IMG/VR virus record: IMGVR_UViG_3300010334_006366
Location: 1 to 45,777 of that record
Strand: one strand, 5' to 3'
Length of the DNA: 45,777 bases
Source of the DNA: a virus
Shown here piece after piece: positions 3,061 to 45,777 of the stretch. Position numbers and translations under genes: made by a program. Numbering within the stretch: position 1 is the stretch's first letter; each line of letters begins with the position of its first letter. The notes under the pieces are model-generated. The model saw only the letters and a list, made by a program, of their open reading frames with translations. It was not told the DNA's origin and searched no databases.

Positions 3061-4233
3061 ATGCTACAAGATTTTAGTTCTATAAGATGTATCAAGACAA
3101 CTGCATTAAAAAATTATAATGCTCGTGGTTGTTCAATGGTTATTACTCCAGATAATCAAAATATTATTATTGGAAATCATAATGGCACTATTAAGATTTT
3201 TAATATAATTACTGGACAATGTTTAAAAACTTTAAAAGCTCATTTTACAGATCGTGCTAATTCAGATATTGATTCAATAGCAATTACGCCAGATGGACAA
3301 AAGATAGTCAGTAGTAGTTATGATTACTGCATTAAAGTATGGGATTTTAATACTGGCAAATGTTTAAAAGACCTAGAACTTTCTCACAAAATGTCTTTTG
3401 GTTATGTAAAATCAATAGCAATTACGCCAGATGGACAAAAGATTGTCAGTGGAAATTCTGATGGCACTATTAAAATTTGGGATATAACTAATCTTGAATG
3501 TTTAAAAACTTTAGAAGGACATGGAGATTATGCTAATTCAGATGTTAATTCAATAGCAATCAGTCCAGATGGTCAATTTATTATCAGTGGTTGTGATGCT
3601 GGCACTATTAAAATTTGGGATATAGATACTGATAAATGTTTAAAAACTTTAAAAGGATATACTTCGGTAACCTCGATAGTAATCACGCCAGATAATCAAA
3701 AGATTGTTAGCAATGGTGAAAATAGATCAATCCAAATATGGGATTTAGCCAAAAGGGAAGGCTTAAAAGGGGAAGGCTTACAAACTACTTTAGGAAAACA
3801 TGACGTCAAAGTAAAATTAATAGCAATTACGCCAGAATTAATAGCAATTATGCCAGATAGTCCATCTAGCGTCATTAGTGATTTTGATTTTTTGGATTAC
3901 TCTATTACGTTATACGACATAAACACTGATAAACATTTACCTTTAGAAGGTCATACAAGTTGGGTACGTCTTGTAGCAATCACTTCAAATGGTAAATATA
4001 TTGTTAGCGCAGATTGTAATAGTAATATTAAAATTTGGGAAATCAATCAAATGAAAAACAATGAAACAATTAAACCTGCCGAAAATACATTAAACCATAG
4101 TCTACTTGAATTGCACCACAGAGTTAGCAGCGAAAAAATCTTAAGTAAAATTCAAACCAAAGAATATTCTGCTGTATTGCAAGAGCTGGCAAATCAAATT
4201 GAAGTCTACACTAAATTGCTTGAATTGCTTTAG
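3061..4233 (+). CDS. WD40 repeat beta-propeller protein
   Basis: 390 residues with seven recognisable WD40 blades, each of the form SIAITPDGQKIVS..DGTIKIWD followed by CLKTL. Blades 1-4 are regular, blades 5-6 are degenerate, and the last ends IKIWEIN. Seven blades would close one propeller. A helical tail of about 70 residues follows (from MKNNETIK on) and may be an oligomerisation or partner-binding segment. AGGA lies just upstream of the ATG. WD40 proteins are abundant in cyanobacteria; capture from a host is the simplest explanation. No enzymatic domain is attached. Confidence 0.92.
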   Translation: MLQDFSSIRCIKTTALKNYNARGCSMVITPDNQNIIIGNHNGTIKIFNIITGQCLKTLKAHFTDRANSDIDSIAITPDGQKIVSSSYDYCIKVWDFNTGKCLKDLELSHKMSFGYVKSIAITPDGQKIVSGNSDGTIKIWDITNLECLKTLEGHGDYANSDVNSIAISPDGQFIISGCDAGTIKIWDIDTDKCLKTLKGYTSVTSIVITPDNQKIVSNGENRSIQIWDLAKREGLKGEGLQTTLGKHDVKVKLIAITPELIAIMPDSPSSVISDFDFLDYSITLYDINTDKHLPLEGHTSWVRLVAITSNGKYIVSADCNSNIKIWEINQMKNNETIKPAENTLNHSLLELHHRVSSEKILSKIQTKEYSAVLQELANQIEVYTKLLELL

Positions 4234-26319: not shown

Positions 26320-26352
26320 ATATAAGAAAGTTTATAGAAAAATACCCAAAAT

Positions 26353-26397
26353 TAGGTATAAATACCTATTGATTTTCTAGGGTATATCGCATATTAT
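26353..26397 (+). promoter_or_regulatory. promoter with full palindromic operator, for the 82-aa gene
   Basis: TAGGTATAAATACCTA (26353-26368) directly abuts -35 TTGATT (26369-26374), then a 17-base spacer and -10 TATTAT (26392-26397). The same palindrome with flanks occurs at 37315-37330 and 41969-41984. Confidence 0.75.
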
Positions 26398-26427
26398 ATA
26401 TATATAAGCCCGATAAGGAGGTTCGTT

Positions 26428-28137: not shown

Positions 28138-28818
28138 TTATACACTAACTAGCTTAGGTTTGCTTGACATACTATTAGAGACCGCTTGACGCTTGGCTTT
28201 CACCTTCTTTGCTGGCAACTGCTCATGAGTTGAAATCGTTGCTTTGTGAACCAACTGTCCATCCTCAAAATCAGCTTTGATTACTGTAAAGCTAGCTTTA
28301 ATTTTGGTCTTTTTGCTAGGTCTAAACGCTGGCTCATCCCAGCTAATCGGCAGGTAACTATTTTTAAAAAACTGCTTAACTTCAGCTTGAGCGTTGCGGT
28401 AAATTGTAAAATAATTTCCTTTGAGGATCGGCACATTTTGCCAGACTCCTTTAAGCAAAAACCCCTCTGGCTCTTGAGGCTGAGTAGGATACCAGTAAAG
28501 CAATCTAAAATAATATTCCTTGCGCACTGGATGATATTGAGGATAGACTTTGAGCCATACTGGTAGGGTTTGCTTTAGATAGTATGGGTCTTGCTGGCTT
28601 GCCATGAAATCCAACAGCTTTGATTGCATATACTGGCAATTGTTCTTAAGAAACAATTTGTATTTTTTATCAAGAAGCAGGTAAAACAAACAGACATCCT
28701 TGCCGTCTTTTTGCTCTATTCTGTATGAGATTGCTCCTTGAATCAAGCCAATTGCCTGATAGAAATGATCCTCTGGCGGGGTAATCTTGCGCTTAATTGG
28801 TTTAGGTAATTTGCTCAT
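28138..28818 (-). CDS. hypothetical protein co-transcribed with dnaN, 226 aa
   Basis: Unrecognised. Rich in aromatic residues (KEYYFRLLYWYPTQPQ) with a beta-strand look and a basic C-terminal tail (KKVKAKRQAVSNS). Its ATG overlaps the dnaN stop, so it is coupled to the clamp. A nucleic-acid-binding or clamp-partner role is possible from context only. Confidence 0.7.
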   Translation of the reverse strand: MSKLPKPIKRKITPPEDHFYQAIGLIQGAISYRIEQKDGKDVCLFYLLLDKKYKLFLKNNCQYMQSKLLDFMASQQDPYYLKQTLPVWLKVYPQYHPVRKEYYFRLLYWYPTQPQEPEGFLLKGVWQNVPILKGNYFTIYRNAQAEVKQFFKNSYLPISWDEPAFRPSKKTKIKASFTVIKADFEDGQLVHKATISTHEQLPAKKVKAKRQAVSNSMSSKPKLVSV

Positions 28819-29933
28819 TATTTTACAATGTCTATTGGCATAATCAAAATTAAGGAATTGGTGTTTTCTTCTTCTTGCTCTGGAGTGATAATTACTGGCT
28901 TGGTAGACTGATTTAATTTAATTCGTATTGAATCAGAACTGACAGATTGAATAGCCTCAATCAAATATTTGATATTGAAGGCGATAATCAAAGAAGTCAG
29001 CCCATTGCCCTTAGCTGGTTCAATTGCCATAACTTCTTGACTGGAGTTAACTTCATTTTTCGCGCTGAGCTCTAATTCCCTGTGGCTAATACTAAATTCA
29101 ACTATATTTTTATTAGAAAATAATGCCACGCGTTCTAGTGAGCTCAATAGCTCCTTGCGGTTGATTGTAAATTCTAATTCAAATTTCTTAGGCACTAGGG
29201 ACTCATATTGAGGATAATTTCCCTCAAGCTTTCTGGTAATCACAATATCTCCAGAAGCTAGGGTTATGCGCAGCCATGCCGAATCTATCTCTAGAGAAAC
29301 CACCGAGCCTTCTAGTAGTCGGTTGATTTTTTGCAAGCTAGCTCCTGGTATCACTACCTCAAAAGCTTTTTCCCCAGAATCACAACTGCTTGCTTGCACA
29401 GCCAATTTGTGACTATCAGTAGCGGCTGCTACAAGACTTTGCTGCTCAGATAAATATTTAAAATCAACACCAGTGAGAATCTGTTTACTCGGCTCATTAG
29501 TATAGAAAGAACCAGTAAATTTTATAAGTTGCTTGAGCAACTTGGGATCTATATCAAATTTGATTTCTGGCGTGATAGCAGGCAGGCTTATATAGTCTTT
29601 GTAATTGCCTCCGGCAATTTGATAGCTGCCAGTAGAAGCTGTGATTGTCGTTAAACATTTTTCATCCACATGGAATCTGATATCTCCAGAGAGGCGGCTC
29701 ATCAAATCGCTCAATATCTGCTTATTTATCGCTACAGAGCCCGGTTTAACTACAGTGGCTTGAGATTGTGCCACGCATCCTGATTGTAGGTCAAACCCTG
29801 TAAAAGTGACTTGTTTGTCTTTTGCTTCAATCAGGACTGTTTTGAGAATTGGGTTATTGGGATTGGCTGGAACAAAGGCAGCAGCTTTGCTCAATGCTTG
29901 ATACAGTAGTGCTTTAGTGGTTATAAATTCCAT
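28818..29933 (-). CDS. dnaN: DNA polymerase III beta subunit (sliding clamp)
   Basis: 371 residues, the normal bacterial length. Typical landmarks are visible: AAAFVPANPNNPILKTVLIEA near the N-terminus, VAIN..ILSDLMSRLSGD, AATDSHKLA(V), a GNYPQYESLVPK segment, and the C-terminal YLIEAIQS...VIITP...LILIMPI. The clamp tethers polymerase to DNA. A phage-encoded bacterial-type clamp is uncommon; it suggests the phage customises the host replicase. It diverges from the SSB-like gene. Confidence 0.93.
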   Translation of the reverse strand: MEFITTKALLYQALSKAAAFVPANPNNPILKTVLIEAKDKQVTFTGFDLQSGCVAQSQATVVKPGSVAINKQILSDLMSRLSGDIRFHVDEKCLTTITASTGSYQIAGGNYKDYISLPAITPEIKFDIDPKLLKQLIKFTGSFYTNEPSKQILTGVDFKYLSEQQSLVAAATDSHKLAVQASSCDSGEKAFEVVIPGASLQKINRLLEGSVVSLEIDSAWLRITLASGDIVITRKLEGNYPQYESLVPKKFELEFTINRKELLSSLERVALFSNKNIVEFSISHRELELSAKNEVNSSQEVMAIEPAKGNGLTSLIIAFNIKYLIEAIQSVSSDSIRIKLNQSTKPVIITPEQEEENTNSLILIMPIDIVK

Positions 29934-37246: not shown

Positions 37247-37285
37247 GTCGTATCTCCTAATTGATTTAATTTCTTAACTTTCTAT

Positions 37286-37330
37286 AGCTTATACGATTTT
37301 TTGTTGGGGGTCAATAGGTATTTATACCTA
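37286..37330 (-). promoter_or_regulatory. promoter with full palindromic operator, for the 100-aa gene
   Basis: Read leftward: TAGGTATAAATACCTA (37315-37330) abuts -35 TTGACC (37309-37314), 17-base spacer, -10 TAAGCT (37286-37291). It lies immediately after the cysH stop. Confidence 0.8.
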
Positions 37331-37332
37331 AT

Positions 37333-38058
37333 TTAAGATAAATCTCGATAATAGGGAAATTCGTTGATTAATTCTTGATAAACATCTGGGGAATCGCGTT
37401 TTAATTTAGCAACTCGCCCCCAGTTTGCGCCCAAAGTACCAAGCGCCGAACCATTTCTTGTGTTAGGGTCTAAATCGTATTGACTGGGATATTCCAACTC
37501 GAACATATTAATGTAGTGCCATATATCCTGCGTTTTCCACCATCCGACTGGGCAACAATAAGTTAATCCCCTAGCTGGATATATTAAACCTCTAGACCTT
37601 AAAGATTCGTATCTTCCTCTAGCTTCTTGCGCGCGCAAGCCCATAGCGACGCCTTTAATATTGTTGTTTTCTTGATATTCCTCCAGAGGATCATAGAAAA
37701 TTGCAGATCTATTTGAAACTTTGTTGAATTGATTAAAATCGTCTCTTTGCCTGTGTGCGGTAAACCTAGAAATGATTGGACAAAGCTCTACTGCGTTTGG
37801 CATTTTGCGCACTATTTCAATTGATTCTGCCCAGTCTCCCAAATTTCCAAATTGCCCTTTATTTACCCACACGTTGGGACAATTTGGATAAATTGTGGTG
37901 ATTAGGTGGCTAGTCACAATTGAATCTTTACCACCTGAAACCGAACAATAAACTTGATAATCACAAAGCTCTAGCCACTGCTTGATTAAATCTAGAGCTT
38001 TGTTGATTTTAGGCTTGAGCCAAGGGATTTGTAAGCCAGAGCCTTTGCTAAGAGGCAA
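37333..38058 (-). CDS. cysH: CysH-like PP-loop ATPase of a type IV-B CRISPR module
   Basis: 241 residues. PP-loop SGGKDS (41-46), then GLRAQEARGR and CPVGWWKTQDIWHYI, as in the PAPS reductase/CysH family. A TTG start at 38058 is backed by GGAG seven bases upstream and lies 11 bases inside the csf3 end. CysH-like genes adjoin most type IV-B loci; the biochemical role there is unknown. The neighbouring csf genes make a role in sulfate assimilation unlikely. Confidence 0.88.
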   Translation of the reverse strand: MPLSKGSGLQIPWLKPKINKALDLIKQWLELCDYQVYCSVSGGKDSIVTSHLITTIYPNCPNVWVNKGQFGNLGDWAESIEIVRKMPNAVELCPIISRFTAHRQRDDFNQFNKVSNRSAIFYDPLEEYQENNNIKGVAMGLRAQEARGRYESLRSRGLIYPARGLTYCCPVGWWKTQDIWHYINMFELEYPSQYDLDPNTRNGSALGTLGANWGRVAKLKRDSPDVYQELINEFPYYRDLS

Positions 38059-38728
38059 GACAATTCTCCTGCTTAATATTCACGCTTGGTACCCAGCAAA
38101 GAGTTGTAGATTCGTGGTGCCAGCTTGGTAATTTCCAAGCTGCTAGTTGTTTGTGCTCAGGCAATTTAGGAGTAAATAGCTCTACTGGAACCGGTCGTCT
38201 AAGCCTGTTGTCTGGTCCAATTATTGACCAATCCCCTGGAATTTCTTGAGCAGTCCAGCTAGTAACCAAGCCATATCCTTGGCTGCGTTTTTTGCCTAGG
38301 TGAGTTACGTTTCTGAGCAATCTTAAAATTGTCTCTTGCTCTCCTACCACGAACCAGTCAATTCTACTAATCGTACGCAAAAAAAGTGGCATATCGTAAG
38401 ACTTGAACTGCCCTTGACTTGTATCTACCTTGGCTTTCTTTTTGCCCCAGTCTAAGTGCCTATCCTGGTAGTCCCAGCGCTTACGAAAATTGACTTGCTC
38501 TTCTTTGCTGTAAAGATAGTGTGGAGAGCTACAGTGATAAAATCCCAATTTGTTTTTTAGTAGGGGTAAATCTATCTGTGTTATCTCTTCAAGTTTTTGT
38601 GGATTGGGATCTAGTAGCCCTAGTTCTTCTCTGAGCTTATATTCAATCAATCCTTCAATCGCTGGAGAAAGGCTGTCAGTAGTGGCTAAAGGTCGTGAAA
38701 GGTGCGCTGTAATTTGTAAAGGAGTCAT
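38048..38728 (-). CDS. csf3: Csf3, Cas5-like subunit of type IV effector
   Basis: 226 residues. RAMP-type protein with the C-terminal-side glycine-rich loop (GKKRSQGYG) followed by LVTSW, as in Cas5/Csf3. In type IV complexes this subunit caps the 5' end of the guide RNA. Starts with an ATGA overlap to csf2. Assigned from motif, size and gene order together. Confidence 0.78.
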   Translation of the reverse strand: MTPLQITAHLSRPLATTDSLSPAIEGLIEYKLREELGLLDPNPQKLEEITQIDLPLLKNKLGFYHCSSPHYLYSKEEQVNFRKRWDYQDRHLDWGKKKAKVDTSQGQFKSYDMPLFLRTISRIDWFVVGEQETILRLLRNVTHLGKKRSQGYGLVTSWTAQEIPGDWSIIGPDNRLRRPVPVELFTPKLPEHKQLAAWKLPSWHHESTTLCWVPSVNIKQENCLAS

Positions 38729-39882
38729 CCTAGTATACCTGCAATTTCGTTTGAATTTTGGTCTAAATATTGTTCGTATTCGTGAAGATATTGAATATAC
38801 CTAGCCTGTTGTTTGGCTGAGCGCTCAGTCAAGGTATGTTTGCCTTCTTGTACCAGCATCCAATCCCCTGTTTCACCCTCACTGGAATAATAGATTTTAG
38901 CTGCAACCTTACCACAGCCTGTATTAGCTTGCCCACCAACATAAGGTGAATCTGCCCAAGCCAATATAGCCCGAGCAATAAACCCCTCCTCGACATCTGT
39001 GATATATCCGTCCCACCGAGAATACAAAGTTGCGCCTTGCTGTATTAACCATGAACCCATAATCATCTGATTACTCTTGGGTTTTTCCTTTTTAGTTTCT
39101 CCAGAATCAAAGAGCGTTTGTTGAACTTTGCCGGCTGATGGTAAAAGGTGCTTTACCAAATTGGGGTCATGATGAGAATCCCGTCTGGTTTTTTGTATAT
39201 AGGTAAGCCAGTGTGGGTAGGGTCTAAGTTTTTGCTCTAAAAAGGGTAGCCAATATTTTAAGGTTTCCTTGTAATCTAAACCAGTACTGGTGGATTCCTT
39301 GCCAGATAAAAAAGCTTGCACTCGTTCTGCTTCTAAAGTCCTTTTGGCGTTTTCAATTTGAGTTAAAGCTTCAATTACTTCAACTGGCAAAGCTGGCTTA
39401 AAAGTATTAAAAATTGCTAATGCGCTTTCGTAGCAGACCAGCGCGGCATCACCCACATTGAGCCTACCGCCAATCATTTGGGCATCAGTAGCACCAAAAA
39501 CCCCTTTAGGTTTGGCTGTTCCTAATAAAGAAATTGGTGGTAAGAATTGCCTAATTTTTTTATCTAATTCAAGATTATTAGAAGTCCCGCCATCAAGAGC
39601 GCCCCCACAAAAAAGTGCATGATGCAAAAGTGGATTTACTGTGATTTTTAGGCGAGAGAGCATATCGTCAATTCCCACTCTGCGCAATATTCTATTTCTC
39701 AATGAATTGCCGGATAAGCAGAATATAGGAGTAGGTTCACCTTCAATATCAGTAAGTGTGACCGTCCGCAAATTGGCTTGATTGCCCACGGTCTCGCCAA
39801 TATGACTCAAAGGAGCTAAAGTTTCTAAGACAAGGTGAAAAGTAATGCGATGGCGCTTATCTGGATTGTAAGTACTAAACAT
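38725..39882 (-). CDS. csf2: Csf2, Cas7-like backbone subunit of type IV effector
   Basis: 385 residues. Hallmarks of Csf2: LSHIGE near 25-30, FCLSGNSLRNRILR near 54-66, and the glycine-rich GGQANTGCGK near 330-340, which contributes to RNA binding in Cas7 RAMP folds. It forms the helical backbone along the guide RNA. AAGGAG nine bases before the ATG; overlaps cas11 by 8 bases. Slightly longer than typical. Confidence 0.85.
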   Translation of the reverse strand: MFSTYNPDKRHRITFHLVLETLAPLSHIGETVGNQANLRTVTLTDIEGEPTPIFCLSGNSLRNRILRRVGIDDMLSRLKITVNPLLHHALFCGGALDGGTSNNLELDKKIRQFLPPISLLGTAKPKGVFGATDAQMIGGRLNVGDAALVCYESALAIFNTFKPALPVEVIEALTQIENAKRTLEAERVQAFLSGKESTSTGLDYKETLKYWLPFLEQKLRPYPHWLTYIQKTRRDSHHDPNLVKHLLPSAGKVQQTLFDSGETKKEKPKSNQMIMGSWLIQQGATLYSRWDGYITDVEEGFIARAILAWADSPYVGGQANTGCGKVAAKIYYSSEGETGDWMLVQEGKHTLTERSAKQQARYIQYLHEYEQYLDQNSNEIAGILG

Positions 39883-40390
39883 CGAAAGTGTCTCCTTGAT
39901 TTTCTTGTGTATTGTTTTGCCAATTAAGCTTCTCTTCTTCGTGCTTGAGCCTCACGTATAGAGTTACTAGTTGAGGTCTATTTAAGCAAACCTTCAGAAC
40001 GTGCCTTTCAGTAATTCCGTACTCAATGCGCCATTGGTGAATCAATTGCTCCCAATCTTGATAGGCTAAAGCTTGATCTTTGTTGAATTGTTGCAAATCA
40101 CCCAAGCTGCCATCTTCTGAAATAGCAGCTCTTAGGACAACCTGATTAGGTTGAACTATCTGGCGCCAGATATTGGGCTTGAGCGTAGGGACTGAAAGCT
40201 TGAGCGAAAGATTCACTAAATAGTCACTAAGGCTTCTTGAAGGTGTGGCAGCGTTTTGTATAGAAGACTGCATGTACTCCCAAGTTTTTAGCCCGTTTGC
40301 TGCTGAACTGGTATCTCGGCACCTAAAAACCCAATAGCTTAAAGCAGCAGCTAGTGAAGTAATCCTATCGTCTGTAGCAAATCCAAGCAT
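39875..40390 (-). CDS. cas11: putative Cas11 small subunit of type IV effector
   Basis: 171 residues, mostly helical, placed between the divergent csf1 and csf2, exactly where type IV-B loci encode the small subunit. Sequence alone is not diagnostic (helices such as RSLSDYLVNLSLKLS and YQDWEQLIHQWRIEY). First gene of the leftward cas11-csf2-csf3-cysH operon. ATG at 40390. Confidence 0.7.
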   Translation of the reverse strand: MLGFATDDRITSLAAALSYWVFRCRDTSSAANGLKTWEYMQSSIQNAATPSRSLSDYLVNLSLKLSVPTLKPNIWRQIVQPNQVVLRAAISEDGSLGDLQQFNKDQALAYQDWEQLIHQWRIEYGITERHVLKVCLNRPQLVTLYVRLKHEEEKLNWQNNTQENQGDTFDV

Positions 40391-40407: not shown

Positions 40408-40423
40408 ATTGATTTATATCAAT
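40408..40423. promoter_or_regulatory. palindrome in the divergent csf1-cas11 intergenic region
   Basis: ATTGATTTATATCAAT, a perfect 6-4-6 inverted repeat with a further ATATCAAT immediately after. It lies centrally in the 51-base gap, so one regulator could control both arms of the CRISPR module. Confidence 0.5.
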
Positions 40424-40441: not shown

Positions 40442-41092
40442 ATGAATTTTTGCTATTTGTGTGGAGCTTCTGGCGCCACTAAATCACTAAGCTTAAAAGA
40501 TAGCTTTACAGCTCACTCTAGGGCCAAAGTGCCAGAATCTAAGCTTTGGTGCGATAGGTGCGCTTGGGTAATTCCCATGCGCGTCAAGTATTACAATCCC
40601 AATACCAAAAAGGAAGGGCTTTTATTTTCTCGCACCTTTAGCTGGCTGCTTTCCAACCAGCAATCCTATCCAATTTTTGAAGGTGATCGCGTGCATACTT
40701 TGCCCAATAGATCGCTAATCAGGCAGTGGCTTATAAATCCACCTGAGCCACCTTTTACAATTGCTATAGCTGAAAGTGGGCAAAAACATATTCTATTTCT
40801 AGCCCAAGAAGCTCAAGAAAAAGATAGATTCCCTGTGCTTTTCGAATTGGATTTACTGGAAATTGATCGAGCTAAATTTACAGAAAATCTAGAGCAATTT
40901 GAATTATTAATGAGCTGGGAGCTTACGAAGACAGAAATACTCAGCGGAAACTACAAATCACAAAACCTGCTCAAGCTTCACAGCAATCCTGAATTCTGGA
41001 AAGCAGAACAAGTCCTAGCACCAATTAGAGGAACTAGAGTTTTTGAATTAATTTCACACGTCGCTTGTAATAAGCAAGCAGAGATGGACTAA
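40442..41092 (+). CDS. csf1: Csf1, zinc-finger large subunit of type IV effector
   Basis: 216 residues from ATG 40442. N-terminal zinc finger of two CxxC pairs (C4/C7 in CYLCGA, C37/C40 in CDRC), the diagnostic feature of Csf1, the Cas8-like subunit. The rest is a mixed domain (WLLSNQQSYPIFEGDRV). Divergent from the other effector genes, and overlapping the convergent HTH gene by 59 bases. Confidence 0.82.
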   Translation: MNFCYLCGASGATKSLSLKDSFTAHSRAKVPESKLWCDRCAWVIPMRVKYYNPNTKKEGLLFSRTFSWLLSNQQSYPIFEGDRVHTLPNRSLIRQWLINPPEPPFTIAIAESGQKHILFLAQEAQEKDRFPVLFELDLLEIDRAKFTENLEQFELLMSWELTKTEILSGNYKSQNLLKLHSNPEFWKAEQVLAPIRGTRVFELISHVACNKQAEMD

Positions 41093-41606
41093 CTGCTATG
41101 CCTGATTTGAATTGAAACTCTCTAATGATCTCTTTATCCCGAGCGCCTCGATTTTCTCTAAGCAGTTGGCACAAGAGCTCTTGTTGCTCTTTACTAAGCA
41201 ATCTTCTAGGAGCAACAATCTTTTTATCGTGAGGTTCTACCTCAAATGCGATTGATCTGACTTGTGCTAATTTACGCCTTTGGTAGCAAACTTGATAATC
41301 TGGGTATTTTGCCCCAGTGCGCTCAAAAAGCAATTGAGCTATCTTTTTGCAGGATAGCTTAGTGTGCAACTCAAAAACCTGGCTTAATACTTGCTGCTGA
41401 TCTTTGGTCAGTATTTTCTTATTACCCTGATTAGGATGTCGTCTGAGTGCCAGCGTTCCTTCTAATTCAACTTGTCTAATAAATCGATTAAGTGTGCCAG
41501 TGCTAAGCCCTAAATCGCGCTCAGCCTGCCTAATCGACTTATCGGAATCTTTCCAGTATTGGTAAAATTTCAGCTTTTGCTCAGGTGTGTAAGATTTTCC
41601 AGGCAT
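41034..41606 (-). CDS. helix-turn-helix protein (transposase-type HTH)
   Basis: 190 residues. An N-terminal HTH of the transposase/HTH_29 type (SYTPEQKLKFYQYWKDSD, then SIRQAERDLGLSTGTLNRFI) is followed by a second homologous-looking HTH region (KEQQELLCQLLRENRG ... DKEIIREFQFKSGIA). No catalytic DDE domain, so it is likely a regulator derived from a transposase. The ATG lies directly after a terminator T run, so it is expressed by read-through or leaderlessly. Confidence 0.75.
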   Translation of the reverse strand: MPGKSYTPEQKLKFYQYWKDSDKSIRQAERDLGLSTGTLNRFIRQVELEGTLALRRHPNQGNKKILTKDQQQVLSQVFELHTKLSCKKIAQLLFERTGAKYPDYQVCYQRRKLAQVRSIAFEVEPHDKKIVAPRRLLSKEQQELLCQLLRENRGARDKEIIREFQFKSGIAVSPSLLAYYKRRVKLIQKL

Positions 41607-41897: not shown

Positions 41898-41939
41898 CTC
41901 GTATCTCCTAATTGATTGATTAATTTCTTAACTTTCTAT

Positions 41940-41984
41940 AGCTTAAGCTATTTTTCGTTGAAGGTCAATAGGTATTTATACCTA
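41940..41984 (-). promoter_or_regulatory. promoter with full palindromic operator, for the 80-aa gene
   Basis: Read leftward: TAGGTATAAATACCTA (41969-41984) abuts -35 TTGACC (41963-41968), 17-base spacer, -10 TAAGCT (41940-41945). Near-identical in layout to the promoter at 37286-37330. Confidence 0.8.
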
Positions 41985-41995
41985 ATTTTGGAAAT

Positions 41996-42634
41996 TTAAA
42001 AAAACCAGCCTGCTCCAAAGTGTTTTCTTCCGCCCAAACCCTTTTGCTGCAAGGTTATTGAATCTTGCTCAGATAATCGAGAAGCAATCACGCCAAATCC
42101 CAAAATTGCCCTATCATGGATCTTGAGCGAACTGACCCTAGTAAAATCCAGTCTTGCGGTAACGCCAATTGTCTCTAGCGCTTTATTGCATGTGTGCCAA
42201 AATTTATCAACCGGAGGATTGGCGTAGTCCCAAATCCCTGGTAATTTAAAAGTCACAATTCTAGCTTGCAACCTGCTTTTTGGCTCTATCTCCTTCAGTC
42301 CGGGATTAATTAATTTTATTTGGTGATTTCTGATATTTAGAATTTTACCTGCTAAAGCTTGCTGGTAATAGGCAGTGTCGCACCCTTTGGCTCTTAGCCT
42401 GAGCCTTGATCCGTCGTTGATTTTAATTAGTCCAGGTGGATCTGATTTGCCTGGGATTGAGCAGAGCAACGCATCCTCTGGTAAATCGCCAGCGATTGCC
42501 TTGATTGCACTATATAGAGAAAATCCATTGTCTGCTGGCAAGGATGAGCCTGATACTTTAAATTCTAATTCTAGAAATTGCTCTAGCACAGAATCGGATT
42601 GTTTATTTCTTTCGGTAACTAAATTTGTAAGCAT
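41996..42634 (-). CDS. cas6: Cas6-type CRISPR RNA endonuclease, Cmx6 (MYXAN)-like
   Basis: 212 residues. The N-terminal pattern (ELEFKVSGSSLPADNGFSLY) and the C-terminal glycine-rich loop (LQQKGLGGRKHFGAGWFF) are those of the Cmx6/MYXAN Cas6 family known from cyanobacteria and myxobacteria. Intermediate features also fit: SRLRLRA, ARIVTFKLPG, LKIHDRAILGFGV. Cas6 cuts CRISPR precursor RNA within its repeat and may stay bound. Type IV-B loci normally lack a Cas6 and this window shows no array, so its RNA substrate is unclear. It begins two bases after the preceding gene. Confidence 0.8.
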   Translation of the reverse strand: MLTNLVTERNKQSDSVLEQFLELEFKVSGSSLPADNGFSLYSAIKAIAGDLPEDALLCSIPGKSDPPGLIKINDGSRLRLRAKGCDTAYYQQALAGKILNIRNHQIKLINPGLKEIEPKSRLQARIVTFKLPGIWDYANPPVDKFWHTCNKALETIGVTARLDFTRVSSLKIHDRAILGFGVIASRLSEQDSITLQQKGLGGRKHFGAGWFF

Positions 42635-42651
42635 TACTAGGTAAGGGTTTT
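42580..42651. repeat. approx. 70-bp direct repeat, copy 1 (cas6 start region)
   Basis: Covers the ribosome-binding region and first about 17 codons of cas6 (MLTNLVTERN...). It matches 42885-42956 with about seven mismatches. Confidence 0.8.
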
Positions 42652-42771
42652 GATTGATTCGTTTAGTGTTTTTAGTGCTTGAGCCATTGCCAATTTAGCC
42701 AGTTGGATGTCGACTTCGACTATCTCGCCAGCTTTGTTTTTAAGCAGTATTTTTTGCTTATTTTGTGCCAC
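42637..42771 (-). CDS. small protein, 44 aa, before cas6
   Basis: A GTG start (42771) overlapping the end of the 59-aa gene, and a TAG two bases before cas6. The sequence is basic then helical (LLKNKAGEIVEVDIQLAKLA). A longer reading frame exists upstream, but that part lies over the 59-aa gene in another frame and is probably not coding. Function unknown. Confidence 0.5.
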   Translation of the reverse strand: MAQNKQKILLKNKAGEIVEVDIQLAKLAMAQALKTLNESIKTLT

Positions 42772-42937
42772 GGCGTAAGCTCCTCTCTTGGTTAATCTGC
42801 TCAATTGTCCACAGTTGCAGACCTTGCTTGATTGCTTTTTGTCGCAATTCAACCAGCTCCTTTGCAAAATCTGATTGATAAGGGCTTAGCGCAGAATTGG
42901 TTTGGTTATTTCTTTCGGGAACTAAATTTGTAAGCAT
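42758..42937 (-). CDS. small protein with a cas6-like N-terminus, 59 aa
   Basis: ATG at 42937. The first ten residues (MLTNLVPERN) match those of Cas6 (MLTNLVTERN) through the direct repeat, but the remainder (SDFAKELVELRQKAIKQGL) is unrelated and helical. It looks like a gene whose start was swapped in, or a gene from which the cas6 start was copied. Translation is likely coupled to the upstream nuclease. Confidence 0.55.
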   Translation of the reverse strand: MLTNLVPERNNQTNSALSPYQSDFAKELVELRQKAIKQGLQLWTIEQINQERSLRRGTK

Positions 42938-42956
42938 TACTAGGCAAGGGTTTTAC
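42885..42956. repeat. approx. 70-bp direct repeat, copy 2 (start of the 59-aa gene)
   Basis: Partner of 42580-42651; the two copies bracket the 44- and 59-aa genes, as after a tandem duplication or repeat-mediated insertion. Confidence 0.8.
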
Positions 42957-43276
42957 GCAACGCCTTTGATTGTATCAGCAATTAAATTAAGCCAATCTGG
43001 GCAGATCATATCCTCTGCCAATTGAAAAACTCTCCATCCGTGAACTAAATTGAGGTTGTGTTTTTCGTAGGATTTGAGCAAGCCAGATCCGCTAGTGTGC
43101 CTCGATTTGTGCCAAATTTGTCCTTCAATCTCTATCCCCACTTTGGTGGCAGTATGGGCAAAATCTAATCTAAATTTCCTGCCGGGAATTGATTTGACCT
43201 CGCGCTCTAGGGCAATTTCTGGATAGAGCTCTCGCCAACTGCGCTCAAAATAATCCTCTAAGTGGGAGCTAGGCAT
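42953..43276 (-). CDS. VSR/DUF559-like PD-(D/E)XK nuclease, 107 aa
   Basis: The sequence KFRLDFAHTATKVGIEIEGQ has the D...ExE nuclease core, followed by WHKSRHTSGSGLLKSYEKHNL and a VHGWRVFQL strand, the layout of very-short-patch-repair and DUF559 endonucleases. The ATG at 43276 lies within the end of the tail gene (ITNA-stop). It may be a nicking or repair enzyme, or a selfish endonuclease inserted after the tail gene. Confidence 0.75.
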   Translation of the reverse strand: MPSSHLEDYFERSWRELYPEIALEREVKSIPGRKFRLDFAHTATKVGIEIEGQIWHKSRHTSGSGLLKSYEKHNLNLVHGWRVFQLAEDMICPDWLNLIADTIKGVA

Positions 43277-45777
43277 TAGTAATTTGCACCTCAGTATAAT
43301 TGCCGTAACCAGTGATTGAACTTTGCTGGTATATCCTAAAAAATTTATTGGCAACACTATTATTTAAATCGACTGATTGTTGAGCCTGAGTATAAATAAA
43401 AGAATTGACATTGCTTACGTAATAGGTATTCACTAAAACCCTATTGGTTTGATTTTGAGCGTAAATCACCCAAACTTCAATTTTAAAAGCGCTGATTTCT
43501 CCAGAAGCAAACCCAATATCAACATAGTCTAATAGACCGCCGTTTTGATATGTTCTCCTATACCAAGACAAGGTTATATCGCCGTTGCTAGCTTTAGTTT
43601 GCTTGACGCCTGTAACGTTGTATGGCGTGGCAGATTGAGCCTTATAGTTGATTGTCACAATATCTGTAATATCTGGTTCGGTTTGGTCATAAGGTACAAT
43701 TTTAAATTCTACGTTTTTGCCAATATCTCCTTGTTTTGTTGCAAGTTGAGTAACATTATTTAAAAGTATGGCGCTCTCTCCGACAACGTGAGTTCCTGTT
43801 AATCGTTCTGTCCCTTTTGCTCCTCTGATTAAATAAGAAATTTGATAAACATTATTTGGTTTAACCAGCACATCTCTAAAGGCTATAATCTCTTGCCCAA
43901 TTAAAATTAAATTTTCCCCTGCCAAAAACGCGTCATCCGTGACAGATTCAAATATAGAATTTGGCGCGTAAATATCAATTCTTGTATAGGGGTCAATTAC
44001 TCCAGTTGGACCATTTGATATAGGAGTACTGTAAACAATTCCTGTAGCGCTGCTACCTTTGACCGTGATAGATTCATTAAAAGTCAAGCCATTGTCGGTA
44101 GAGACAAATACTGTTCCTGTGGAGAAATTGGAAACGCTCTCAACCGCAAAATATATTCCTAGAGGATTGTCTGAATTTTTCAATACTGGAATATCCAATA
44201 CATGCAGAATGCCTTCAGTGTAAGAGCTGACATTAGAATATGGCTTAGCGACTTGGGGTGTGTAGTTGGAAACGACTTGTGTTATTGCGTAATAGTTATT
44301 ATCGTTTCTAGGGTCATAACTGATTGTATTACTGTCGTTAAATCCTGGTGTTGTATCGCTTGTTTGTACTGTGGCGACTATTACTCCATGATCCCAATCA
44401 AAAAGCGGAGACCCTTGGCTCCATAACGCTTGTGGTATTGCTAGTGGAGCATCTGGATAATTAATATAAATTGTGGGATCGCCAATAAAGCAACTGGTAT
44501 TAAAAACAGGAACAGGGCTAGACTGTTGAAATTCAGGAACGTTGCTAACTTCGGGAAACCCCAGCGGGTTTTGTGAGTAACTACTATTAGGACCAAATAC
44601 TAAAGAAAAAACCCCGTCGCCTCTTTGTACTCCTTGATAAATTATTTGCAAATTGTCGGCATGCCCAACAAAGGGATGAGTAGTCCGAGTGTAGTAAACT
44701 ACACTACCTGGAGGATAGGCATGCCCGTCGGACATAAAAATCCAACTGAGATTCCTAACCGCGATCCATACGAAAAAATTCTTGACAACAGAAACAATAG
44801 GACTTAAATATTGATTGCCTTCAATCTGGCAAAGGTAATCAGCGCTCAGTAGCTTTTTAGTAATCTGCAATTGCACTACTCTTGATCCTATATTGAGCCC
44901 TATGACATCGCCTAGGTGCAACTTGGTATACCAGCAAGGCAGCAAATTTATTCCGCTAAAAGTATTGCGTTGTGAGGCTACCTCGCCAATAATCCGGTTT
45001 GCAAGCCCCTCCATAAAAGTAGGATTTGCCCAGGCTCTAGTCTGAATTGAAAGTGGATTGTTAGATTTAGCCAAGGGGTTACCTGCTGAAACTACCCACT
45101 GGCTATAGTTATCACCAAGGTTTCTAAAGCTGATTTGCACTTCGGAGGGCATCTCGCGCTTGTGTTGAATTTTCTCTTGGAACAGGTCTGGAGATTTGCC
45201 GGGGGTATTGCGAGCGCCCAGATTATTTAAAGCTAGGTTGAGCGATACAGATGGTCTGGTCTTTTGGAGCAGTTTAAAAACGCCATTTTCCTCTCTGTGA
45301 GTCAGGAAAAATAATCTACAAATCTCGTTTAAATAATCAGCGTAGGTTTCGCCTGTGCGCTGAAAAAGCAGTCCTTCAATCTGCTGTCCTGCTGGCACAT
45401 CTGATAAATCTAGCTTGTTTGTATCAAACCCTGCACTAGTAAAGATATCTTGGATTATTGACCTAATTGTGGGATTAGCTCCTCCCTTGCCGTAGACAAG
45501 TACATCCACCTTGGGGAACCCCGCGCCATTAAAATCTGAAAGCGGATAACGATTAAAAGTGATATAGGATCTGCCTCTAAAAGCTGGTATCGCGTTACCT
45601 TCAACAGAAGAAATTACAGAGGAAATTGGTTGATTTAGAGTCCCTAAAAAAACCTCACTATGTCGGACAAAATTAGCTGATTTTTTCTGAACAGTCTCTT
45701 TGCTGTAGACTTGCACTCCATTGCACCAAACGCACCTGAGATCGCTAATTTCTCCACCGATCATATAAGCGCAGGTC
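43269..45777 (-). CDS. tail-tip / host-specificity protein (5' end outside window)
   Basis: The frame is open to the right edge and continues upstream (TCAYMIGGEISDLRCVWCNG), so the methionine at 45764 is internal. The start resembles the conserved N-terminal region of siphophage and GTA tail-tip proteins (DLR.VWCNGVQVY). A long beta-rich body and a fibronectin-III-like end (SATPYNVTGVKQTKASNGDITLSWYRR, in parts) suit a receptor-contacting protein. 831 residues are visible. Confidence 0.75.
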   Translation of the reverse strand, partial: TCAYMIGGEISDLRCVWCNGVQVYSKETVQKKSANFVRHSEVFLGTLNQPISSVISSVEGNAIPAFRGRSYITFNRYPLSDFNGAGFPKVDVLVYGKGGANPTIRSIIQDIFTSAGFDTNKLDLSDVPAGQQIEGLLFQRTGETYADYLNEICRLFFLTHREENGVFKLLQKTRPSVSLNLALNNLGARNTPGKSPDLFQEKIQHKREMPSEVQISFRNLGDNYSQWVVSAGNPLAKSNNPLSIQTRAWANPTFMEGLANRIIGEVASQRNTFSGINLLPCWYTKLHLGDVIGLNIGSRVVQLQITKKLLSADYLCQIEGNQYLSPIVSVVKNFFVWIAVRNLSWIFMSDGHAYPPGSVVYYTRTTHPFVGHADNLQIIYQGVQRGDGVFSLVFGPNSSYSQNPLGFPEVSNVPEFQQSSPVPVFNTSCFIGDPTIYINYPDAPLAIPQALWSQGSPLFDWDHGVIVATVQTSDTTPGFNDSNTISYDPRNDNNYYAITQVVSNYTPQVAKPYSNVSSYTEGILHVLDIPVLKNSDNPLGIYFAVESVSNFSTGTVFVSTDNGLTFNESITVKGSSATGIVYSTPISNGPTGVIDPYTRIDIYAPNSIFESVTDDAFLAGENLILIGQEIIAFRDVLVKPNNVYQISYLIRGAKGTERLTGTHVVGESAILLNNVTQLATKQGDIGKNVEFKIVPYDQTEPDITDIVTINYKAQSATPYNVTGVKQTKASNGDITLSWYRRTYQNGGLLDYVDIGFASGEISAFKIEVWVIYAQNQTNRVLVNTYYVSNVNSFIYTQAQQSVDLNNSVANKFFRIYQQSSITGYGNYTEVQITNA

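Follow-up and report, generated by a model that had tools for sequence, protein, structure and literature searches.

Cas6 binds the stem-loop of a CRISPR repeat, cuts at its base and usually remains bound, and Csf2 and Cas11 form a filament on RNA. Type IV-B systems have been described without a Cas6 and without a CRISPR array (PMC7937560, PMC8175902). The one IV-B complex that has been studied comes from such a Cas6-less system; it contained heterogeneous, non-specific RNA, and a co-expressed type I-E crRNA was not enriched in it (PMC7937560). One proposal for IV-B is that it scavenges crRNA or acts as a sponge for it (PMC8175902). The plasmid-borne IV-B system behind the Mycobacterium sp. 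JS623 structure (PMC7937560) consists of csf1, cas11, csf2, csf3 and a cysH-like gene, and has neither adaptation genes nearby nor an array beside the csf genes. The phage locus described here is alike in all these respects. Unlike the plasmid system, however, it adds a Cas6 of the Cmx6 family, and its carrier is a tailed phage, whereas IV-B is described without a crRNA-processing enzyme.

Two further systems bear comparison. Type IV-A with Csf5/Cas6 also joins a type IV effector to a Cas6-like enzyme, but has an array and DinG and lacks Cas11 (PMC8175902, PMC7937560), whereas our locus has CysH and Cas11 and no array beside it. The IV-B system of the Fuxiviruses, which are viruses of Bathyarchaeia, is likewise virus-encoded and accompanied by cysH, but has a two-repeat mini-array in the locus; the accessible part of that report does not mention Cas6 (PMC10848311). 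In the literature searched, whose coverage did not extend to Katz 2024 and Pinilla-Redondo 2020, we found no earlier report of a phage Cas6 together with IV-B.

The DNA that we analysed, hereafter the window, is the entire linear IMG/VR record IMGVR_UViG_3300010334_006366 of 45,777 bases. IMG/VR records can be fragments or chimeras, and at 45.8 kb this one is probably a fragment, with the rest of the phage genome lying outside it. Its IV-B effector is complete. PADLOC assigns csf1 (type IV Cas8-like; 40442..41092, plus strand; PDLC01721, 5.4e-28) and, all on the minus strand, cas11 (type IV small subunit; 39875..40390; PDLC01696, 9.2e-14), csf2 (type IV Cas7; 38725..39882; PDLC01724, 4.1e-38) and csf3 (type IV Cas5; 38048..38728; PDLC01727, 1.5e-45). 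A Pfam search adds the IV-B accessory gene cysH (37333..38058, minus strand; PF01507, 3.7e-11), which encodes a PP-loop protein of the alpha form with an SGGKDS motif; its PAPS-reductase/CysH domain adjoins csf3. Csf1 carries the zinc-finger cysteines CYLCG and CDRC, and its ORF has an alternative start, TTG at 40409. It matches TIGR03114 with 2.1e-11, which is under the curated cut-off, as are all matches of the window to the NCBIfam Csf models.

On the minus strand beyond csf1 lies cas6 (41996..42634), in the immediate vicinity of this IV-B locus as an earlier note on the sequence had claimed. The distance from the end of csf1 (41092) is 903 bases, against about 900 in that note, with two genes in between. 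Between csf1 and cas6 is a gene for an HTH protein with a transposase-like DNA-binding domain (41034..41606, minus strand; HTH_32, just under the cut-off). It was not detected at the corresponding place in the nearest relative, L003 (G002), and thus is probably not part of the IV-B system. No match to Csf5 was obtained in the window with Pfam, NCBIfam or PADLOC, and no array was found there. Given that a crRNA-processing gene is linked to the csf genes in the window, in further phages and in a plasmid, the system is best regarded as a variant of IV-B and not a typical one; the lack of an array at the locus agrees with IV-B.

Elsewhere in the window, similar promoter-like repeats stand ahead of small genes at 37266-37334, 41920-41988 and 26332-26400, and also in L003 (G002). 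They contain the palindrome TAGGTATAAATACCTA and boxes resembling TTGACC and TATAAG, and are probably a phage promoter with its operator. Judged by sequence, 3061-4233 encodes a WD40-repeat-like protein and 28818-29933 a protein like the DNA polymerase III beta clamp.

The product of cas6, a protein of 212 residues, is a genuine Cmx6/MYXAN Cas6. A search with the NCBIfam model TIGR02807 (cas6_cmx6, 'type I-MYXAN Cas6/Cmx6') gave 9.4e-33 and 113.8 bits (cut-off 98.85), and Pfam PF09559 gave 6.8e-41 and 140.8 bits (cut-off 26.7); six PADLOC Cas6 models also match. An AlphaFold2 model, computed from an input of 36 phage and cellular relatives, has a mean pLDDT of 91.2 and a pTM of 0.85 and shows the Cas6 fold with two RAMP domains. 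Its best PDB folds in Foldseek are the Cas6 structures of a type I-B CAST, 8fcu and 8fcj (TM 0.80-0.81), followed by other Cas6 structures including that of Pyrococcus; 8fcj is also the sole PDB match by sequence. The C-terminal glycine-rich loop GLGGRKHFGAGWF (residues 199-211; 42002..42040, minus strand) is intact, as the earlier note had read it, and G199, G201, G207, G209 and F211 are invariant across the 36 phage and cellular proteins. Residues 1-18 form an extra N-terminal helix. A 68-nt direct repeat (91%) occurs at 42584-42651, over the start of cas6, and upstream at 42887-42954; the N-terminal residues of Cas6 derive from this duplicated start.

The active site departs from the family in a way that the earlier note overlooked. 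Nearly all cellular relatives have the motif LPADHGY, and a single fetched protein has tyrosine in place of its histidine; these relatives were collected with two patterns, one spanning the site and allowing H, N or Y, the other excluding it. In the Cas6 of the window, of G001 and of G002, asparagine stands at this position (DNGF; Asn36 in the window, codon 42527..42529, minus strand, from alignments A1 and A3). A second phage clade, hereafter the Tyr clade, reads RNYHY with tyrosine at the site. The histidine is kept in the Cas6 of G004 (DHGY) and of G003, G020 and the plasmid pGMOR1 (DHNY). Because its conserved histidine is Asn36, crRNA processing by the window Cas6 is doubtful, and reduced cleavage is plausible. 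We do not, however, make a firm claim of a dead Cas6. The type I-B CAST Cas6 8fcj has asparagine at the same position, catalytic residues differ among Cas6 families, and Sulfolobus enzymes cut without a histidine (PMC3727216, PMC4041471). The missing histidine thus affects the question of activity and not membership of the Cmx6 family. This CAST protein is the nearest solved relative of the window Cas6, and CASTs reportedly take host crRNA via Cas6 (PMC11656645); the CAST Cas6 differs in being part of a I-B Cascade that guides transposition.

The linkage of cas6 to the csf genes is more than an accident of a single contig. Searching IMG/VR with Csf3 and Csf2 yielded about 29 loci, with csf2 relatives in 29, and whole records were then searched with PF09559, first 19 and afterwards ten further phage records. 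A cas6 that is full length, or nearly so at a contig end, is present in 13 of the first 19 and in one of the ten others (G020). Besides the window and pGMOR1, about 14 other phage records thus have a full-length gene beside csf genes, which makes Cas6 a recurrent partner of this IV-B lineage. In G014 and G015, cas6 is truncated to 57 residues. Over the whole records of G021, G023 (75.5 kb), G024, G027 (86 kb) and G028, csf genes are found and no PF09559 cas6; some of the remaining records end near the csf genes. The retention of IV-B in G023 and G027 without a PF09559 Cas6 means that Cas6 is dispensable for the system.

The position of cas6 varies. In the window it lies beyond csf1, in G004 the order is csf2-cas6-csf3, and in G003 and G020 it sits one gene past cysH. 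In the Tyr clade the order is cas11-csf2-csf3-cysH, then a cupin or other ORF, then cas6; we rejected a loss of csf1 from this clade, since the gene sits elsewhere in G008 and G010. The plasmid pGMOR1 of Gloeobacter morelensis (NZ_CP063846.1) reads cas11-csf2-cas6-csf3-cysH-cupin-csf1. It has a gene set like that of the window, including a Cmx6 Cas6 and cysH in the beta form, and its proteins are 34-39% (Csf), 27% (Cas6) and 26% (CysH) identical to those of the window. It differs in being a plasmid, in having cas6 inside the operon, in the kept histidine and in a C2c8-like gene with an array about 60 kb off. Its record annotates the Cas6 as Cmx6 and leaves every csf gene unnamed. A search of 386 cyanobacterial genomes for Csf2 gave essentially nothing, with one marginal match over 47 positions. 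As phages and a plasmid carry the set and the cyanobacteria essentially lack Csf2, the Cas6-IV-B module belongs to mobile elements. Among INPHARED phages no relatives of Cas6 or Csf2 were found.

Several other genes at these loci also vary. The alpha form of CysH is found in the window, G002, G014/15, G023, G024, G027 and G028, and the beta form in G003, G004, G020, the Tyr clade and pGMOR1. Full-length cas6 is present in all beta-CysH lineages, and among the alpha lineages only in that of the window. The Csf proteins of the window and G002 are 98-99% identical but their CysH proteins only 51%, so that cysH was swapped too. A small cupin protein by cysH is shared by a Tyr-clade phage (L010:11333-11692) and pGMOR1 (L184:10402-10797) at 44% identity, and a different cupin-like ORF lies close by in G023 and G028; the cupin is a possible further IV-B partner. 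The 86-kb record G027 has a second, diverged csf3-like gene (L148:14091-14714; 25% identity) about 3 kb from its complete csf set.

The histories of Cas6 and of the effector differ. We compared the five phages of clade I, i.e. the window, G002, G004, G003 and G020. In the Cas6 tree, the proteins of window/G002 and G004 fall into one fully supported clade with cyanobacterial Cas6, the best of which is 55% identical to that of G004, and those of G003 and G020 lie across a fully supported branch with Cas6 from Oscillatoriales and others. A single clade of the five Cas6 proteins is rejected (AU test, p = 1.75e-5); one of window/G002 with G004 is not (p = 0.67). The five Csf2 proteins, by contrast, form one clade with 100/100 support, in the order G003, G020, G004, window plus G002. 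Built from short proteins with long branches, the trees call for the customary caution, and where the Tyr clade belongs among the Cas6 proteins is uncertain. Since a single origin is rejected for Cas6 and Csf2 is monophyletic, at least two captures or replacements of Cas6 follow: a vertically inherited effector had its Cas6 exchanged one or more times, or took up the gene on more than one occasion. The phages exchange Cas6 for host versions, and the effector stays. The phage Cas6 is of cyanobacterial origin and not a Csf5, in line with the family assignment in the earlier note. The dN/dS of cas6 is 0.11 at a dS of 0.31 between the window and G002 and 0.07-0.42 within the Tyr clade, values that indicate purifying selection.

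Which RNA might such a Cas6 recognise? Many of its cellular relatives are encoded less than 10 kb from arrays of one 36-nt repeat class with a consensus near GTGNNNNAACCTTTGATGCCGTAAGGCGTTGAGCAC, and the same class lies by Cas6 relatives from Acidobacteria, Planctomycetes and Synergistaceae. The repeat core GATGCCGNNAGGCGTTGAGCAC is present in 27/386 cyanobacteria, compared with 1/386 for the reversed control; GUGAUUAAACCUUUGAUGCCGUAAGGCGUUGAGCAC is one such cyanobacterial repeat. Direct-repeat, 18-mer and degenerate scans revealed no CRISPR array in the window. A 22-bp head-to-tail tandem at 538-735 is not an array, as spacers are absent, and the other matches of these scans are promoter-like and gene-internal repeats, neither arrays nor solitary repeats. 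No array of the cognate repeat accompanies cas6 in the window or in G002 (79.7 kb), in a scan that requires three copies at 20/26 identical bases and that single or decayed repeats may escape. With a weight matrix of the host repeat, the best sites in the window and G002 were within the shuffled range, and no clear phage copy emerged. One site in G008, with a score of 18.6, exceeded the highest shuffled value of 13.6; being single and without a partner, it was taken as a chance match. Because cyanobacterial arrays contain the cognate repeat class and no clear copy of it was found in the phages, the best explanation is still an action on host CRISPR RNA, which the earlier note had suggested as processing, capture or sequestration of host guides.

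Some relatives do have arrays, a point missing from the earlier note. Its description of the locus as array-less applies to the window and G002 but fails for three phage relatives, G004 (42.0-42.6 kb, eight repeats GTTGCAAATAGGTTAAGAAGGCAACAGGTTAGAAAC, with more repeats around an IscB gene), G003 (17.2-17.5 kb, five repeats) and G010 (46.6-46.9 kb, five repeats). In pGMOR1, an array follows the C2c8-like gene, which is annotated as a transposase. This raises the possibility that Cas6 processes arrays borne by the phages and plasmids themselves. IV-B would then be a conventional crRNA-guided type IV system, with an array at another place in the genome that it shares with a V-U or IscB effector. 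Among records that are longer than 70 kb or complete, arrays occur in four of six with cas6 and in neither of the two without; as arrays thus accompany only cas6 in long records, they could still be a source of guides. Yet every array adjoins the gene of an RNA-guided nuclease: IscB (NF040563, 3.7e-136), a TnpB/Cas12f-like protein or a C2c8/Cas12u2-like (V-U2) protein. TnpB zinc ribbons are present in exactly the three array-bearing phages of the 20 records searched. The repeats of G003 and G010, when scored, did not match the Cmx6-cognate repeat, and that of G004 differs from it by eye. Moreover, no array was found in G002, in G008 (80 kb) or in the window, all of which carry cas6. The arrays seem to belong to the adjoining nucleases, and we do not take them as first choice for cognate arrays of cas6. 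We therefore consider processing of the elements' own arrays unlikely. The spacers of the phage arrays found no targets in the phage set.

The nuclease loci themselves deserve a brief description. In G004 (42010-45470; L053:2010-5470), two arrays that share one 36-nt repeat flank the phage IscB gene, as does a duplicated segment of about 300 bases, a possible omega-RNA; the locus is a CRISPR-associated IscB in a cyanophage. C2c8/Cas12u2-like proteins by an array are encoded in G010 (46614-48643; L058:6614-8643) and pGMOR1 (140572-142850; L190:40572-42850), both of which also have IV-B and Cas6. In G003, the array repeat recurs as two decayed copies, which are separated by 71 bases and lie over the start of csf1 (45940-46046; L043:5940-6046), less than 1 kb from a TnpB remnant.

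We propose that a IV-B effector of cyanobacterial phages (Csf1, Cas11, Csf2, Csf3 and CysH) recruited a host-derived Cas6 of the Cmx6 family. In host pre-crRNA or crRNA, Cas6 would bind the 36-nt CRISPR repeats (core GATGCCGNNAGGCGTTGAGCAC) at their stem-loop, and the Csf2/Cas11 filament, by itself indifferent to sequence, would thereby be directed to host CRISPR RNA. Host guides would then be withheld from the host complex, or be used by the phage complex. Since its conserved histidine is Asn, the Cas6 of the window lineage may bind more than it cuts. The repeated uptake of Cas6 suggests that the IV-B complex is aimed at CRISPR RNA, probably that of the host. A host substrate is the best explanation because a host-derived Cas6 is swapped as the phages diverge and no cognate repeat was found in them. 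Mobile elements are reported to use host crRNA via Cas6 in the case of CASTs (PMC11656645), and a phage anti-CRISPR RNA that traps Cas6 and Cas7 blocks type I-F immunity (PMC10651486). The RNA substrate, the loading of Csf2 and the outcome are inferences. We put the probability that Cas6 makes an otherwise promiscuous IV-B filament specific for host CRISPR RNA, for sequestration or reuse, at roughly 45%. The data fit reuse of guides as well as they fit a decoy or sequestration.

Several observations weigh against this proposal. The 463 spacers taken from the host arrays that we fetched include none with a convincing match in the phages, cas6 is separated from csf1 by two genes in the window, some relatives own arrays, and G023 and G027 maintain IV-B without this Cas6. 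The purified IV-B complex showed no enrichment of I-E crRNA (PMC7937560), but it came from a system that lacks a Cas6.

Cas6 could also work by itself, as a dominant-negative anti-CRISPR that binds host repeats or joins the host Cascade in a non-functional form, independently of the Csf proteins. The replacement of the histidine, by Asn in the clade of the window and by Tyr in the second clade, both under purifying selection, would fit such a role. Cas homologues are known as anti-CRISPRs; like our Cas6, AcrIB3 is a host-derived cas gene in a phage, and it mimics Cas5 (Katz et al. 2024, as described in PMC13131331). In contrast to AcrIB3 as described there, the window Cas6 is retained alongside an entire type IV effector. 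The gene has been captured repeatedly into the csf locus, in G004 and pGMOR1 even inside the operon (csf2-cas6-csf3), which points to a function together with Csf. In addition, the histidine persists in G003, G004, G020 and pGMOR1, and its loss is no proof of inactivity (PMC3727216, PMC4041471). A role separate from the effector is thus improbable.

Less probable again is that Cas6 processes a non-CRISPR RNA, such as a phage or host transcript with a hairpin, into a guide or scaffold for IV-B. The purified complex did assemble on heterogeneous RNA of regular length (PMC7937560), and our search for RNA elements in the phages covered repeat-like sequence. However, the replacement of Cas6 by host versions fits a repeat that is determined by the host better than a fixed phage RNA. 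That Cas6 is a host-derived passenger without function in IV-B would suit its frequent gain and loss (truncated in G014/G015, absent from G021, G023, G024, G027 and G028), but is very hard to reconcile with at least two independent captures beside the same effector, purifying selection and the presence of cas6 in 5/5 clade-I phages.

Within the proposed action on host CRISPR RNA, one specific form is tentative and on balance somewhat unlikely: a guided RNA trap, in which a weakly cleaving or non-cleaving Cas6, re-captured to match host repeats, would nucleate Csf2/Cas11 on host pre-crRNA and so disarm immunity. If true, the trap would amount to an anti-CRISPR made by repurposing a CRISPR effector, and it would explain why IV-B systems are without arrays and nucleases.

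The function of IV-B depends on the RNA that it binds. A lineage that has repeatedly acquired Cas6 of host type points to CRISPR RNA as the natural cargo, and our data add a genetic link between IV-B and CRISPR RNA. The GATGCCGNNAGGCGTTGAGCAC repeat class provides a defined candidate substrate for testing the function of IV-B. The system would also be a candidate counter-defence, with an entire CRISPR effector turned by a phage on the guides of its host.
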